From Minisyncoccota bacterium (GTDB taxonomy: Bacteria; Patescibacteriota; Microgenomatia; PFEM01; JAFGMK01), in assembly GCA_016927565.1 (NCBI GenBank), contig JAFGMK010000030.1, forward strand, positions 1-38,666: a DNA stretch of 38,666 nt. The letters run 5' to 3'. The notes below the pieces were generated by a model. The model was not told the origin of the DNA and searched no databases. It was given only the letters and a program-made list of their open reading frames with translations. Position 1 is the stretch's first letter, and each line of letters begins with the position of its first letter. Below are positions 1,027-38,666 of the stretch, piece after piece. A program made the position numbers and the translations under genes.

Positions 1027-1622
1027 TGAAAAAAAATTGGTCTAATTTTTATTTGGTTGGTTTTTCGGCAGTAGTGATGATTAGTCTGCTGGCGGCCAGT
1101 TTTATTTTTTGGGATGATTATTTTCAAAAGAGCTTAAGTGCTAAAAAGACTGCTATTCAATCAGCTTTAAGCAAAACATTTTCTCATAAAGAAGCTGGTC
1201 TGGAATCGGAAGTAGATCTTTCCTTGACAACCCAAGACGAATCCCTAGTTCCGGGTCAGGAAGTAGAAGTTCAAGCAATAATTGAAACGGGTGGTAGGGA
1301 GACCTGGGGCGGGGATCTGTGTTTGGTTTATGAGCCGGATCAAATAGAGATTTTAGAAGTCCGGGCAGGCGATTTTTTTCCTGAGCCGCTTTTGCTGGAA
1401 AATTTAATTGACAAAAAAGAGGGAGAAGTCAGATTAAGTGTCGGTAGTTTAAAAGTTGGTAAGGGTCGGGGAACTTTGGGAATAATTAGCTTTCGAGTGA
1501 AAGAAGGAGCTGATTTGGCCAAGCTTTCTTTTCTTGAAAGTACTCAGGTTGCTTTGAAAGGAAAGCTAGAACCGGCGTCAGTGACCTTTCATGATTTGGC
1601 TTTGCCGGTGGAGGAAGAATGA
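1026..1622 (+). CDS. Membrane-anchored single-cohesin protein
   Basis: This 198-residue protein has a short basic N-terminus and one membrane helix (about residues 8-29). A roughly 35-residue spacer follows, then one cohesin-like beta domain (about 62-190). The cohesin call rests on LVPGQEVEVQAIIETGG, followed by a strand with YEPDQIEILEV, the same order seen in the neighbouring cohesins. There is no dockerin. The uncleaved helix probably anchors the domain outside the cytoplasmic membrane. The ATG shares one base with the upstream stop. The gene's own stop overlaps the next ATG (ATGA), and its final Glu codons form a Shine-Dalgarno-like GGAGGAAG for that gene. Sequence similarity to the other cohesins here is lower, so the domain call is good rather than certain. 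Confidence 0.75.
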   Translation: MKKNWSNFYLVGFSAVVMISLLAASFIFWDDYFQKSLSAKKTAIQSALSKTFSHKEAGLESEVDLSLTTQDESLVPGQEVEVQAIIETGGRETWGGDLCLVYEPDQIEILEVRAGDFFPEPLLLENLIDKKEGEVRLSVGSLKVGKGRGTLGIISFRVKEGADLAKLSFLESTQVALKGKLEPASVTFHDLALPVEEE

Positions 1623-3046
1623 AAACTAAGTACATAGTAATAATCATTTTTTTAATAGCCATTCTGGGATCTTCTTCTTTCTTGGGGTTTTTAATGAAAG
1701 GGGCTCGGGAAATTCGAGTCAAGGCAGAACCGGAGTCGGTCGTTTTTTTAGACCCGGCAGCGCCGTCAGCTAGGGTTGGCGAAACTTTGAGCTTGACAGC
1801 GATGATTAATACCGGGGCGAATGTTGTTCCGGCAGTAGAGCTTCATTTGACTTATAATCCTGAGGTTTTCCAGATAACTTCGGGAGGTTTTACGGCCAGT
1901 TCCCGGATGAATGAAGTTTATGACGGGCCGGAAATTGATAATGCTAATGGCACGGCCTATCTCGTGGTTGGCAATGTCGCTAATCCTATCCAGGGAACAG
2001 CGCCGTTAGCTTCGGTTGATTTTAATGTGATTAAGCCCAGCGAACAAATTGAAGAGATTGGTTTTTCTTCTCAGACAAGAGCCGGTGCCTGGCAGGAGGG
2101 AGGGATGAACGTTGTTGTCGAAGTTCGGCCGGCAGCGGTGAGCATTTCTTTGCCTCAACCGGATTCGGTCTTGTATTTTAATCCTGATGCGATTGGGGTT
2201 TCAGTTGGCGAGGAGTTTGATTTAAAGACGATGATTAATACCGGCACTAACATTGTTCCGGTTGCCGACCTTTATTTCGACTTTAATCCTGATGTCTTCC
2301 GGGTAATTTCATTGGCGGCCGGCCCGGATTTGTCCACTGTTTATGAGGGTCCGGTAATTGACAATCAGGCAGGGCTGGCTTCAATTGTGGTAGGGAATGT
2401 CGAAAATCCGATTAACGGTATTGGCGAGATTGCTTTGTTGCGTCTGGCGGTTACCGCGGATTTTGGAGGAGAAGAGAAAATAACTTTTGGCTCTCAATCT
2501 CAGGTGGCAGCTTGGTATGCAGAAGACCTGAATGTTCTAAAAAGCACCGGAGAGGCAAAGGTAACTTTTGTTGAACCGAGTTCCAGCGTGACTTTTATGC
2601 TTAAACTACCGGGGATTGAGGAGGCCCGGCCCAGGCCCGGATCGGTGGATTTGACTTTGAGGCAGAATTCGATAGTCAGGTATTCATTTGAGGAAGTGGC
2701 AATCAATACCGGCGCTGATGGAGTTTTTTCCGGTCAATTAACCAACATTGTTCCGGGTGTTTATGATGTTTTGGTTAAGCCGTGGGCTCATCTGCGACGA
2801 AGTCTTGGTGAGGTTAATTTCCCTGATGGCGAAGACAGCAAAGATTGGACGGGGGAAGAAATTTTAGCCGGAGATTCCTGGCCGGACAATGTCATTGATA
2901 TTTTTGATGTCACGATTCTTTCCCAGAATTATGGTTCTAGAATGCCCCCGGAGGGAAGCCGGGCTGATTTTAATCTTGACGGCCAAGTTGACATTTTCGA
3001 TTTGGTGCATATCTCCGAAAACTTTTCTCAACGGGGCGATGAGTGA
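1619..3046 (+). CDS. Membrane-anchored protein with two cohesins and a dockerin
   Basis: This 475-residue protein starts with a signal-anchor helix (about residues 5-26). Two closely similar cohesin modules follow (about 40-175 and 182-320). Both carry the pattern MINTGxNxVP, a strand with NPxVF, and a DNxxG...VVGNVxNPI loop. A pre-dockerin beta module (about 325-410, with VPGVYDVLVKPWAHLRR) leads to a C-terminal dockerin (about 415-470), whose second loop, DFNLDGQVDIFD, is canonical. The repeat structure suggests internal duplication of the cohesin. With both binding partners on one chain it could polymerise or link the other three proteins of this operon. It is coupled to both neighbours by overlapping stop and start codons. 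The family call is strong; partner specificity is unknown. Confidence 0.86.
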   Translation: MKTKYIVIIIFLIAILGSSSFLGFLMKGAREIRVKAEPESVVFLDPAAPSARVGETLSLTAMINTGANVVPAVELHLTYNPEVFQITSGGFTASSRMNEVYDGPEIDNANGTAYLVVGNVANPIQGTAPLASVDFNVIKPSEQIEEIGFSSQTRAGAWQEGGMNVVVEVRPAAVSISLPQPDSVLYFNPDAIGVSVGEEFDLKTMINTGTNIVPVADLYFDFNPDVFRVISLAAGPDLSTVYEGPVIDNQAGLASIVVGNVENPINGIGEIALLRLAVTADFGGEEKITFGSQSQVAAWYAEDLNVLKSTGEAKVTFVEPSSSVTFMLKLPGIEEARPRPGSVDLTLRQNSIVRYSFEEVAINTGADGVFSGQLTNIVPGVYDVLVKPWAHLRRSLGEVNFPDGEDSKDWTGEEILAGDSWPDNVIDIFDVTILSQNYGSRMPPEGSRADFNLDGQVDIFDLVHISENFSQRGDE

Positions 3047-3858
3047 TGAAAACGAAAAAAATCATTCTAATCATTGTCGTCTTTCTTTTTTTGGCCTCAG
3101 TTCCCTTGGCGATATATCTGGTTAGACAGCGTCAGGAAATCAGAATGAGAGCGGCTCCGGCTTCGACGATTTCTTTCAGCCCCGGCTCTTTAAATGTTTT
3201 TCCGGGGGATAGTTTTGTTTTGGATGCGGTTCTGGAAACAGGAGCGAATGTTGTCCCGGCGGTGGAATTGCATGTTAGTTTTGATCCGGAGGTCTTTGAA
3301 ATTAACAGCTTGTCTGCCGGATCTGATTTGGCGACTGTTTTTGACGGGCCGACAATTGACAATCAGGCGGGGATTGCCTTTTTGGTAGTGGGTGATGTTG
3401 AAAGTCCGATTGAGGGAATAGGAACAGTGGCAACGATCGGTTTTGATGTAAAAGGACCCAGTCAGGGGGTGGTTGAGGAGATTGTTTTTTCAAGCGAAAC
3501 TCAGGCGGGAGCTTGGGGAGAAGAAGGCCAGAATGTTCTGGTTGACACCAGTCCGGCTTTGGTGACGATTGTTTCAACCGGCGGCTCAGAAGGGCCTACG
3601 GCCACTCCGACTCCCGCTTCTGTTCCAACCTCAACCCCAACTTCGGGTTTGGTTCCGACAGCGACACCTACTTTTTATCCGACCAGCACGCCGACTTGGA
3701 GTCCGACAGCGACGCCTAATTCTTATGAATATCTCCCAACTTCGACTCCGGCAGTTGCCTCGCCCGCTCCGCCGGTGACCGGTTTCGCCTGGCCGACAGT
3801 GATCTTTGTCGGCTTGGCAACAGGCTTCTTTTTAATCGGTTTTCTTGGCTTAACCTAA
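3046..3858 (+). CDS. Cohesin protein with PT-rich stalk and C-terminal membrane helix
   Basis: This 270-residue protein begins with a signal-anchor helix (about residues 6-26). One cohesin domain follows (about 40-175), nearly the same as those of the preceding gene (ETGANVVPAVELHVSF, then DNQAGIAFLVVGDVESPI). A Pro/Thr/Ser-rich stalk (about 180-242) then leads to a hydrophobic C-terminal helix (about 250-269) preceded by PVTG. The ATG at 3046 shares one base with the upstream TGA and gives an MKTK start like its paralog; a GTG at 3043 is the alternative. The C-terminus has no basic tail after the helix, so a standard LPXTG sortase signal is not proven. The stalk may be O-glycosylated, which would fit the glycosyltransferases downstream (inference). 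Confidence 0.82.
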   Translation: MKTKKIILIIVVFLFLASVPLAIYLVRQRQEIRMRAAPASTISFSPGSLNVFPGDSFVLDAVLETGANVVPAVELHVSFDPEVFEINSLSAGSDLATVFDGPTIDNQAGIAFLVVGDVESPIEGIGTVATIGFDVKGPSQGVVEEIVFSSETQAGAWGEEGQNVLVDTSPALVTIVSTGGSEGPTATPTPASVPTSTPTSGLVPTATPTFYPTSTPTWSPTATPNSYEYLPTSTPAVASPAPPVTGFAWPTVIFVGLATGFFLIGFLGLT

Positions 3859-37329: not shown

Positions 37330-37360
37330 TTGACAAGGTATATCCATTTAGTGTTAACAT
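37330..37360 (+). promoter_or_regulatory. Predicted promoter of the right-edge gene
   Basis: A perfect -35 TTGACA (37330-37335) is followed after 19 bp by TAACAT (37355-37360) with an extended TG at 37352-37353. Transcription would start near 37367, leaving a leader of about 90 nt before the ATG at 37459. Confidence 0.55.
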
Positions 37361-37458: not shown

Positions 37459-38666
37459 ATGAAGCCTAGAAAAACAGCAGAGGAGAGACTCCGGTTAATC
37501 CGCCAGGTTCTGAATAAGAAGACAACAATCTCCAAAGTTTGTCTTCAGGCAGGAATTTCACGACCGACTTTTTATCGCTGGTTAAAGACATATAAAAAAA
37601 CTGGTTCTTTGGCCCCTCTAAGGCCGGGGAGGCCGCGGAAGGCAAGGGAAAAAGTTGCGAAGAGGAGAAAAAATAAGGTTTTGACTCCGGCCTTAAGACA
37701 ACAACTAGTAAAAAGACTTCTTCCAAAAAATCAGACAGTGGCTGTGATTTGTCGGGAATTTGGTGTTTCTCGGCCAACGGCTTATAAGTGGCTTCGGCGT
37801 TATTTGGATTTAGCCGATCAGAAGCAGATTTATTTGGAAGACAAAAAGCCAGCGGTGCTTCGTTATTATCAGCAAACTCCAGCAGAGTACGAAGAAGTTG
37901 TTTTGAAGGCGGTGGCTAAGAACCCGGAATTAGGGGTAAGGAGGCTGGTTGGGGTTTTGCCTAAGATTGGCCGAAAACCACTTGTTGGTTATCACGGGGT
38001 GCAGAAAATCATGGAGAGAAATGGGCTGAACAACTTAGAGGCTAGGCAAAATTATGCAAAAGACAGTACAATCTGGCTTGACCGCTTTATTTCCGAGATT
38101 GTGAAGATAGCCACTTCTGTTCTGCTATTGCCGGTTAAAAAGAGAGTTTATCTGATCCGCCTGGGATTTGTCGGCTTCCTTTCCGGTCTCAGCACAGTAG
38201 TGGTTCTGGGGACGATTCGATTTTATTTGCTGTTATATTCGGGGAGATCGTTGGGTTCGCAGATCGGAATTTTGACTGCTAGTGTTTCTTTACTGACCGG
38301 TTCAATTTTTCTTTTATACTCTTTGAAATATTATCTTACGGTGGCTTTGGTTTTATCTTTTTCTCAGGAAAAGAAACCTGATGACGGCAAAACCGAAAAA
38401 AAAGCAGCGGTTTTTGGGGAAGGAATGTCTTTTTGGAGTTTAATGGGGAGGATTTTCGGGATTGATATTGAGGTTAATCCGAAAAAAAAGCTGGGGAAGA
38501 GGAGGGGGATTTTGGGTCGGTTAACTTCGCCGATGATTGGTCCTGGCCTAGATCCTGATCTTGATAAAGTCAGACTTTCAAGATATCCCTTTGTCTCCAT
38601 TCAGCTGCCGATGTACAACGAAAAAAGAGTGGCTGAAAGACTTCTCAAGGCCTGTTCCCGGATCAA
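37459..38666 (+). CDS. Transposase-like HTH domains fused to membrane GT2, 3' partial
   Basis: The frame is open from the ATG at 37459 to the window end (402 residues visible, no stop). Residues 10-48 (ISKVCLQAGISRPTFYRWL) and 76-116 (VICREFGVSRPTAYKWLRRY) are two helix-turn-helix units. Residues 140-195 (NPELGVRRLVGVLP, then YHGVQKIMERNGL) match the HTH_21-like segment before the DDE core of IS3/IS481 transposases. Instead of a DDE core there follow membrane helices (about 231-260 and 267-299), a basic linker, and YPFVSIQLPMYNEKRVAERL, the opening of a processive GT2 domain like CSLA or cellulose synthase. The rest of the GT2 lies beyond the edge. The product may be a membrane polysaccharide synthase with a DNA-binding head; the function of that head is unknown. 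Confidence 0.85.
   Translation, partial: MKPRKTAEERLRLIRQVLNKKTTISKVCLQAGISRPTFYRWLKTYKKTGSLAPLRPGRPRKAREKVAKRRKNKVLTPALRQQLVKRLLPKNQTVAVICREFGVSRPTAYKWLRRYLDLADQKQIYLEDKKPAVLRYYQQTPAEYEEVVLKAVAKNPELGVRRLVGVLPKIGRKPLVGYHGVQKIMERNGLNNLEARQNYAKDSTIWLDRFISEIVKIATSVLLLPVKKRVYLIRLGFVGFLSGLSTVVVLGTIRFYLLLYSGRSLGSQIGILTASVSLLTGSIFLLYSLKYYLTVALVLSFSQEKKPDDGKTEKKAAVFGEGMSFWSLMGRIFGIDIEVNPKKKLGKRRGILGRLTSPMIGPGLDPDLDKVRLSRYPFVSIQLPMYNEKRVAERLLKACSRI

Follow-up and report, generated by a model that had tools for sequence, protein, structure and literature searches.

A transposase-type DNA-binding head fused to a membrane glycosyltransferase in Patescibacteria is matched to a putative operator of its own gene

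Transmembrane transcription regulators such as ToxR and CadC join a helix-turn-helix (HTH), a membrane helix and an outer domain in one chain, and in trigger enzymes such as PutA, which degrades proline, an enzyme also binds promoter DNA (PMC5052742). The main text of a census of transmembrane regulators holds no word beginning 'glycosyl' or 'enzym' (PMC10269533). PEP-CTERM sorting pairs a tripartite C-terminal signal with a neighbouring exosortase carrying Cys, Arg and His, and its substrate genes have large upstream gaps and a sigma-54-type cis element (Haft 2006, PMC1569441). Here we describe a gene family that resembles each of these systems in part, together with IS481/IS3 transposases and processive family 2 glycosyltransferases (GT2). 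Like ToxR and CadC, the protein encoded in our DNA carries a DNA-binding-type domain and a membrane helix in one chain, and one relative (L120) has exactly the HTH, membrane helix and outer domain of those regulators; unlike them, the family has a transposase-type head and places an enzyme between head and ectodomain. Like PutA, it would be an enzyme that binds promoter DNA, as judged from sequence, but the enzyme is an integral membrane polysaccharide synthase and the head is IS481-like. The families, structures and literature that we searched contained no case of a polysaccharide synthase equipped with a DNA-binding domain and a matched operator of its own. Nor did the literature search return anything pairing a transposase DNA-binding domain with a glycosyltransferase in CPR (broader queries gave unrelated matches) or an exosortase with Microgenomates or Patescibacteria.

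The window, the whole 38,666-nucleotide stretch analysed, is the entire contig C6 of a 1.19-Mb Minisyncoccota genome in 31 contigs. From the ATG at its far end the frame stays open for 402 codons up to the contig edge, as a preliminary description had reported (Table 1). HTH_28, HTH_23 and HTH_Tnp_1 of Pfam each match two stretches within residues 1-115, and HTH_32 and the IS481 model match the winged-HTH segment. The two HTHs and the IS481/IS3-like order that had been described are thus confirmed, with an IS481-like winged HTH as third unit; HTH_21, to which the third segment had been likened, was not among the Pfam matches shown. Residues 80-198 match positions 2-115 of 284 of the IS481 transposase model NF033577 (93 bits, E 1.7e-26), below that model's cut-off of 224. 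The likeness to IS481/IS3 transposases (NF033577, NF033516) lies in the HTH and winged HTH; unlike an IS481 transposase, the family lacks a DDE (rve) core, and its head is joined to membrane helices and GT2. In an AlphaFold model of the 402 residues, built with 26 homologues, the HTHs, the winged HTH and both membrane helices were predicted with high confidence (mostly pLDDT >90). The membrane-helix region holds the family signature LYSLKYY, and residues 377-402 align with the GT2 start in all homologues extending that far, which agrees with the membrane helices and GT2 opening described earlier. Only about 25 GT2 residues lie within the window before the contig stops, and the remainder of the gene was not found elsewhere in the source genome's assembly. 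The head has a strongly basic pI of 10.7 (residues 1-225), its recognition helices rank among the best-conserved stretches of the homologue alignment, and the GT2 topology places it on the predicted cytoplasmic side. A PDB fold search with the 402-residue model gave no significant match (weak ones include the DNA-binding proteins Pax-6, Tc3 and CENP-B), and neither did a PDB sequence search with the head alone.

Table 1. Positions of the window gene, its encoded parts and its upstream element, and of two relatives that lack GT2
Feature	Position	Strand	Basis or remark
Putative promoter/operator element TTGACAAGGTATATCCATTTAGTGTTAACA	37330..37359	+	Conserved 5' of HTH-head genes; T at operator position -6
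HTH-GT2 fusion gene, 5' part	37459..38666	+	Open frame to contig edge; homologues
First HTH, residues 7-48, recognition helix SRPTFYRW	37477..37602	+	Pfam, AlphaFold, HTH scan
Second HTH, residues 77-116, recognition helix SRPTAYKW	37687..37806	+	Pfam, HTH scan, AlphaFold
Winged HTH, residues 142-187, IS481-like second DNA-binding unit	37882..38019	+	NCBIfam NF033577, AlphaFold
Two membrane helices, residues 226-261 and 265-301	38134..38361	+	Hydropathy, AlphaFold, invariant alignment columns
GT2 domain start, PFVSIQLPMYNEKRVAERLLKACSRI	38587..38664	+	Alignment; local GT profile
L119 HTH-head protein	L119:5052-12560	-	Same operator, no GT2, Laminin_G_3 domain
L120 HTH-head protein	L120:5390-6856	+	Same operator, HTH-TM-ectodomain, no GT2

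The fusion is real and recurrent. Matches were found in six of 59 related genomes besides the window genome, and a profile built from ten sequences detected HTH-head relatives in 22 of the 374 genomes of the class and also in other classes of the phylum. The same fusion, which the preliminary description had proposed looking for in other Patescibacteria, is conserved in numerous genera belonging to more than one class. Every assembly in the comparison is either a draft or unnamed. Searched as a whole against genome contigs, the window protein gave only short GT2-region matches in other phyla. Complete relatives have 1137-3654 residues and a common order: IS481-like head, two membrane helices, GT2, further membrane helices, WFRTPKTG, a membrane helix, an ectodomain and a tail. 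The idea that the two parts might always be separate genes is refuted by these fused homologues; there is one clean split (L114, two overlapping genes broken after the second membrane helix), and frame breaks in the first copy at L107 and in L115 are possibly errors. The GT2 of the homologues carries the motifs DDS, DAD, TED and QRMRW, and with its GT-A fold and membrane helices it has the features of a processive synthase (D, D, TED, QxxRW). In this it resembles PgaC/IcaA (TIGR03937), BcsA and hyaluronan synthase, and the AlphaFold model of a complete homologue, unreliable in its ectodomain part, matched cellulose synthase BcsA (E 4e-16) and hyaluronan synthases. What sets the family apart from those enzymes is its DNA-binding head and the ectodomain of its complete homologues; the L055 member scored 87.8 against the TIGR03937 equivalog cut-off of 422.3 bits. 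The ectodomain is large, variable and membrane-anchored, and the portion of the window protein beyond the contig edge presumably resembles that of the complete homologues. Heads also occur on membrane-ectodomain proteins lacking GT2 (L119, L120).

Many contigs end inside HTH-GT2 genes (L054:1-1127, L059, L060, L061, L064, L113 and L116), as if these genes broke assemblies. Identical GT2 repeats as the cause are unproven, DNA identity between paralogues being limited: 93% over 158 bp in one genome (G032) and 76% in another (G008).

Upstream of these genes lies a shared element of about 30 bp, an imperfect dyad in which TTGACA is followed after a short spacer of variable length by a TACCCA-like half and, 5-6 bases further on, by GKTAACA; the conserved upstream DNA found by BLAST is mostly confined to this element. 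It stands just upstream of 30 of the 33 HTH-head genes in the class: a regular expression leaving base -6 (counted from the element's last A) free found it at 27, and a matrix added L117, L114 and L065, the last with a weak TTGACA. A clear element is missing at L104, the first copy of L107, L061 and L124. In a scan of both strands over 437 kb from 33 loci, every one of the 28 sites with a score of at least 25 lay upstream of HTH-head genes, GT2-less ones included; two of them were additional copies, at 795 and 932 bp from their gene. As the matrix had been trained on these sites, leave-one-locus-out scores were used; 25 of 27 sites then stood at 22.8 or higher, and the highest value in unrelated background was 18.8. 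Across the 1.19-Mb window genome the pattern TTGACN{4,9}YCCAN{4,7}KTAACA matched exactly twice, at the window element and at C27:1180-1207, in both cases just before an HTH-head gene (the window gene and its C27 paralogue); the backwards control pattern gave one chance match. A DNA pattern applied across the class and required to lie near an ATG proved too strict: most of the known sites escaped it, and of its three matches two had no known HTH-head gene. Rfam returned nothing at E 0.1 for the upstream region. In two loci (L109:13730-14600 and L062:10500-11500) the element is present twice in the same orientation, the second copy 770-920 bp upstream of the first with a long non-coding stretch between them; in L109 this second copy falls within a 117-bp direct repeat.

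The sequence of the head is matched to that of the element. With the HTHs aligned by profile, all 37 x 21 residue-base pairs were scanned, and the top pair in the HTH nearest the membrane was recognition-helix residue +2 (P106 in the window protein) with base -6 (z 12.0; next pair 4.9). The same pair led in the first HTH (z 8.9; next 6.8). In the HTH nearest the membrane the correspondence had no exception among 34 genes: Lys with G (13/13), Phe with C (2/2), and Pro, Thr, Val, Ile, Asn or Gln with T (19/19). The match was first spotted by eye on 30 genes; four loci found later in another class fitted it, and serve as an independent check. The raw permutation probability of 5e-12 ignores kinship, and residue classes do partly cluster by descent; on the tree, however, six changes of base label are needed, at least four of them, involving G, on supported branches. 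Moreover, seven of ten multi-copy genomes hold mixed residue classes, with every paralogue matched to its own base. L121 has a Lys-type first HTH beside a T operator, and its second HTH (Pro) fits. In L064 the head and operator are L057-like whereas the membrane/GT2 part groups with L058, which suggests that head and operator move together. At L104:8285-12472 (+) the recognition helices read SRDT, with Asp at +2, beside a variant element ending in TCTGACA, possibly another letter of the code. Taken together, the comparisons argue strongly that the head binds the element upstream of its own gene and that residue +2 reads base -6. Lys-G, Phe-C and others-T would make up a natural head-operator set with a readable code, testable in E. 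coli.

An exosortase gene is usually found near the HTH-head gene of homologue loci, either as the next gene (several loci) or beyond at least one intervening gene. Four of four tested open reading frames of about 180-230 residues near HTH-head genes scored above the exo_archaeo cut-off, and three residues reported for the EpsH family (Cys, Arg and His) were kept in all 16 aligned exosortases. Among the same 374 genomes, 22 had an exosortase, 22 an HTH head and 17 both, where 1.3 would be expected (P 6e-21, a statistic that ignores kinship). No exosortase was found in the window genome, both of whose HTH-head genes are cut by contig ends. Nearly all complete homologues end in a PEP-CTERM-like tail of [VI]PE, a hydrophobic helix and a basic end. 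The family thus shares with the PEP-CTERM system the tripartite signal, usually a neighbouring exosortase, large upstream gaps and an upstream cis element; unlike that system it has [VI]PE and not PEP, its substrate is fused to GT2 and HTH, and its upstream motif is of TTGACA type, not sigma-54. The genes lying between fusion and exosortase include a 23S rRNA IVP/bAvd-like one and a PD-(D/E)XK one (L058:4477-4863 (-), L106:18246-18662 (+)).

In our reading, a protein that is both membrane polysaccharide synthase and surface protein probably autoregulates the promoter of its own gene, with repression the likely mode. The cytoplasmic head, joined to GT2 by the membrane helices, would bind the element 5' of its gene, which overlaps positions called as -35 (TTGACA) and -10 (TAACAT) by the E. 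coli consensus, so that binding would block RNA polymerase and produce negative feedback, with every paralogue recognising the operator of its own gene. If TAACAT is the -10 of a leaderless message, a start codon should follow shortly behind it, and eight genes have theirs 7-8 nt after TAACA. Of the roles considered in the preliminary description, own-gene regulation is strongly supported by sequence comparison, the element being specific to HTH-head genes in the scanned sequence and the residue-base match holding in 34 of 34. Given binding, we lean towards negative autoregulation because the element spans the presumed -35 and -10, where a bound protein should block polymerase. Speculatively, the state of synthase or ectodomain at the membrane could alter head-operator binding and so couple surface assembly to expression. 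The fullest version, in which one polypeptide joins promoter, membrane synthase and exosortase-anchored surface domain, so that the state of surface assembly is read into transcription of its own synthase and paralogues are kept apart by matched head-operator pairs, is offered tentatively. If true, the protein would act as a feedback device from surface to gene that needs no separate signalling chain; confirmation would give Patescibacteria a compact surface control without a separate regulator, and would mean that transposase-type heads have been captured in bacteria as specific promoter readers.

The strongest competitor keeps autoregulation and reverses its sign, the protein acting as a MerR-like or ToxR/CadC-like activator that reports the state of its ectodomain; its probability overlaps with that of our reading through this shared part. 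Between TTGACA and TAACA the spacing ranges from 16 to 19 here, which takes in values known from MerR-type promoters, and L120, a plain HTH-membrane-ectodomain protein, has the same operator. However, the window protein has no MerR-family assignment and the element overlaps presumed polymerase contacts, which usually means repression, and we judge activation unlikely, if the most credible of the alternatives. The suggestion that the head tethers the chromosome to the membrane synthase, any effect on transcription being secondary, appears rather improbable. Because head, membrane helices and ectodomain belong to a single chain, a bound head would hold the operator locus at the membrane, and such anchoring of this one locus may occur as a by-product. 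A general tether would be expected to have numerous sites outside promoters, and it is disfavoured because the genome holds two sites, each just 5' of an HTH-head gene.

Two further readings are very improbable. A domesticated HTH serving protein contacts only, also raised in the preliminary description, is consistent with DNA binding being predicted from sequence, but it leaves the residue-base match without explanation and fits poorly with recognition helices so well conserved in so basic a head. The IS481-like head and the second, same-orientation operator copies in L109 and L062 could mean that the element is a mobile element's terminal repeat, to which a remnant transposase remains bound. 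Yet when both strands were scanned, none of the loci had an inverted partner at its far end, so the terminal-inverted-repeat reading was dropped, and no transposase catalytic core was reported for the complete homologues, which have GT2 or an ectodomain. IS481/IS3 transposases bind paired element ends, whereas the site putatively bound here is a promoter. An assembly chimera or frameshift, feared earlier at 38040-38160 and conceivable for a draft assembly with contig ends inside the gene, is effectively excluded, because the same one-frame order recurs in independent genomes, including a single-contig one (G127).

Neighbours of the fusion at L055:7690-10209, L104:13303-16209 and L109:2869-5139 include MFS/spermidine synthase-like proteins and a TMEM260-like protein of the O-mannosyltransferase family. 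Cohesin/dockerin-like surface proteins are present in the window genome: two adjacent open reading frames at 1619-3858 (+) of the window match the Cohesin domain, and those at 1-1026 and 1619-3046 show, by eye, dockerin-like D-L-D-G-D-V-D repeats at their ends.
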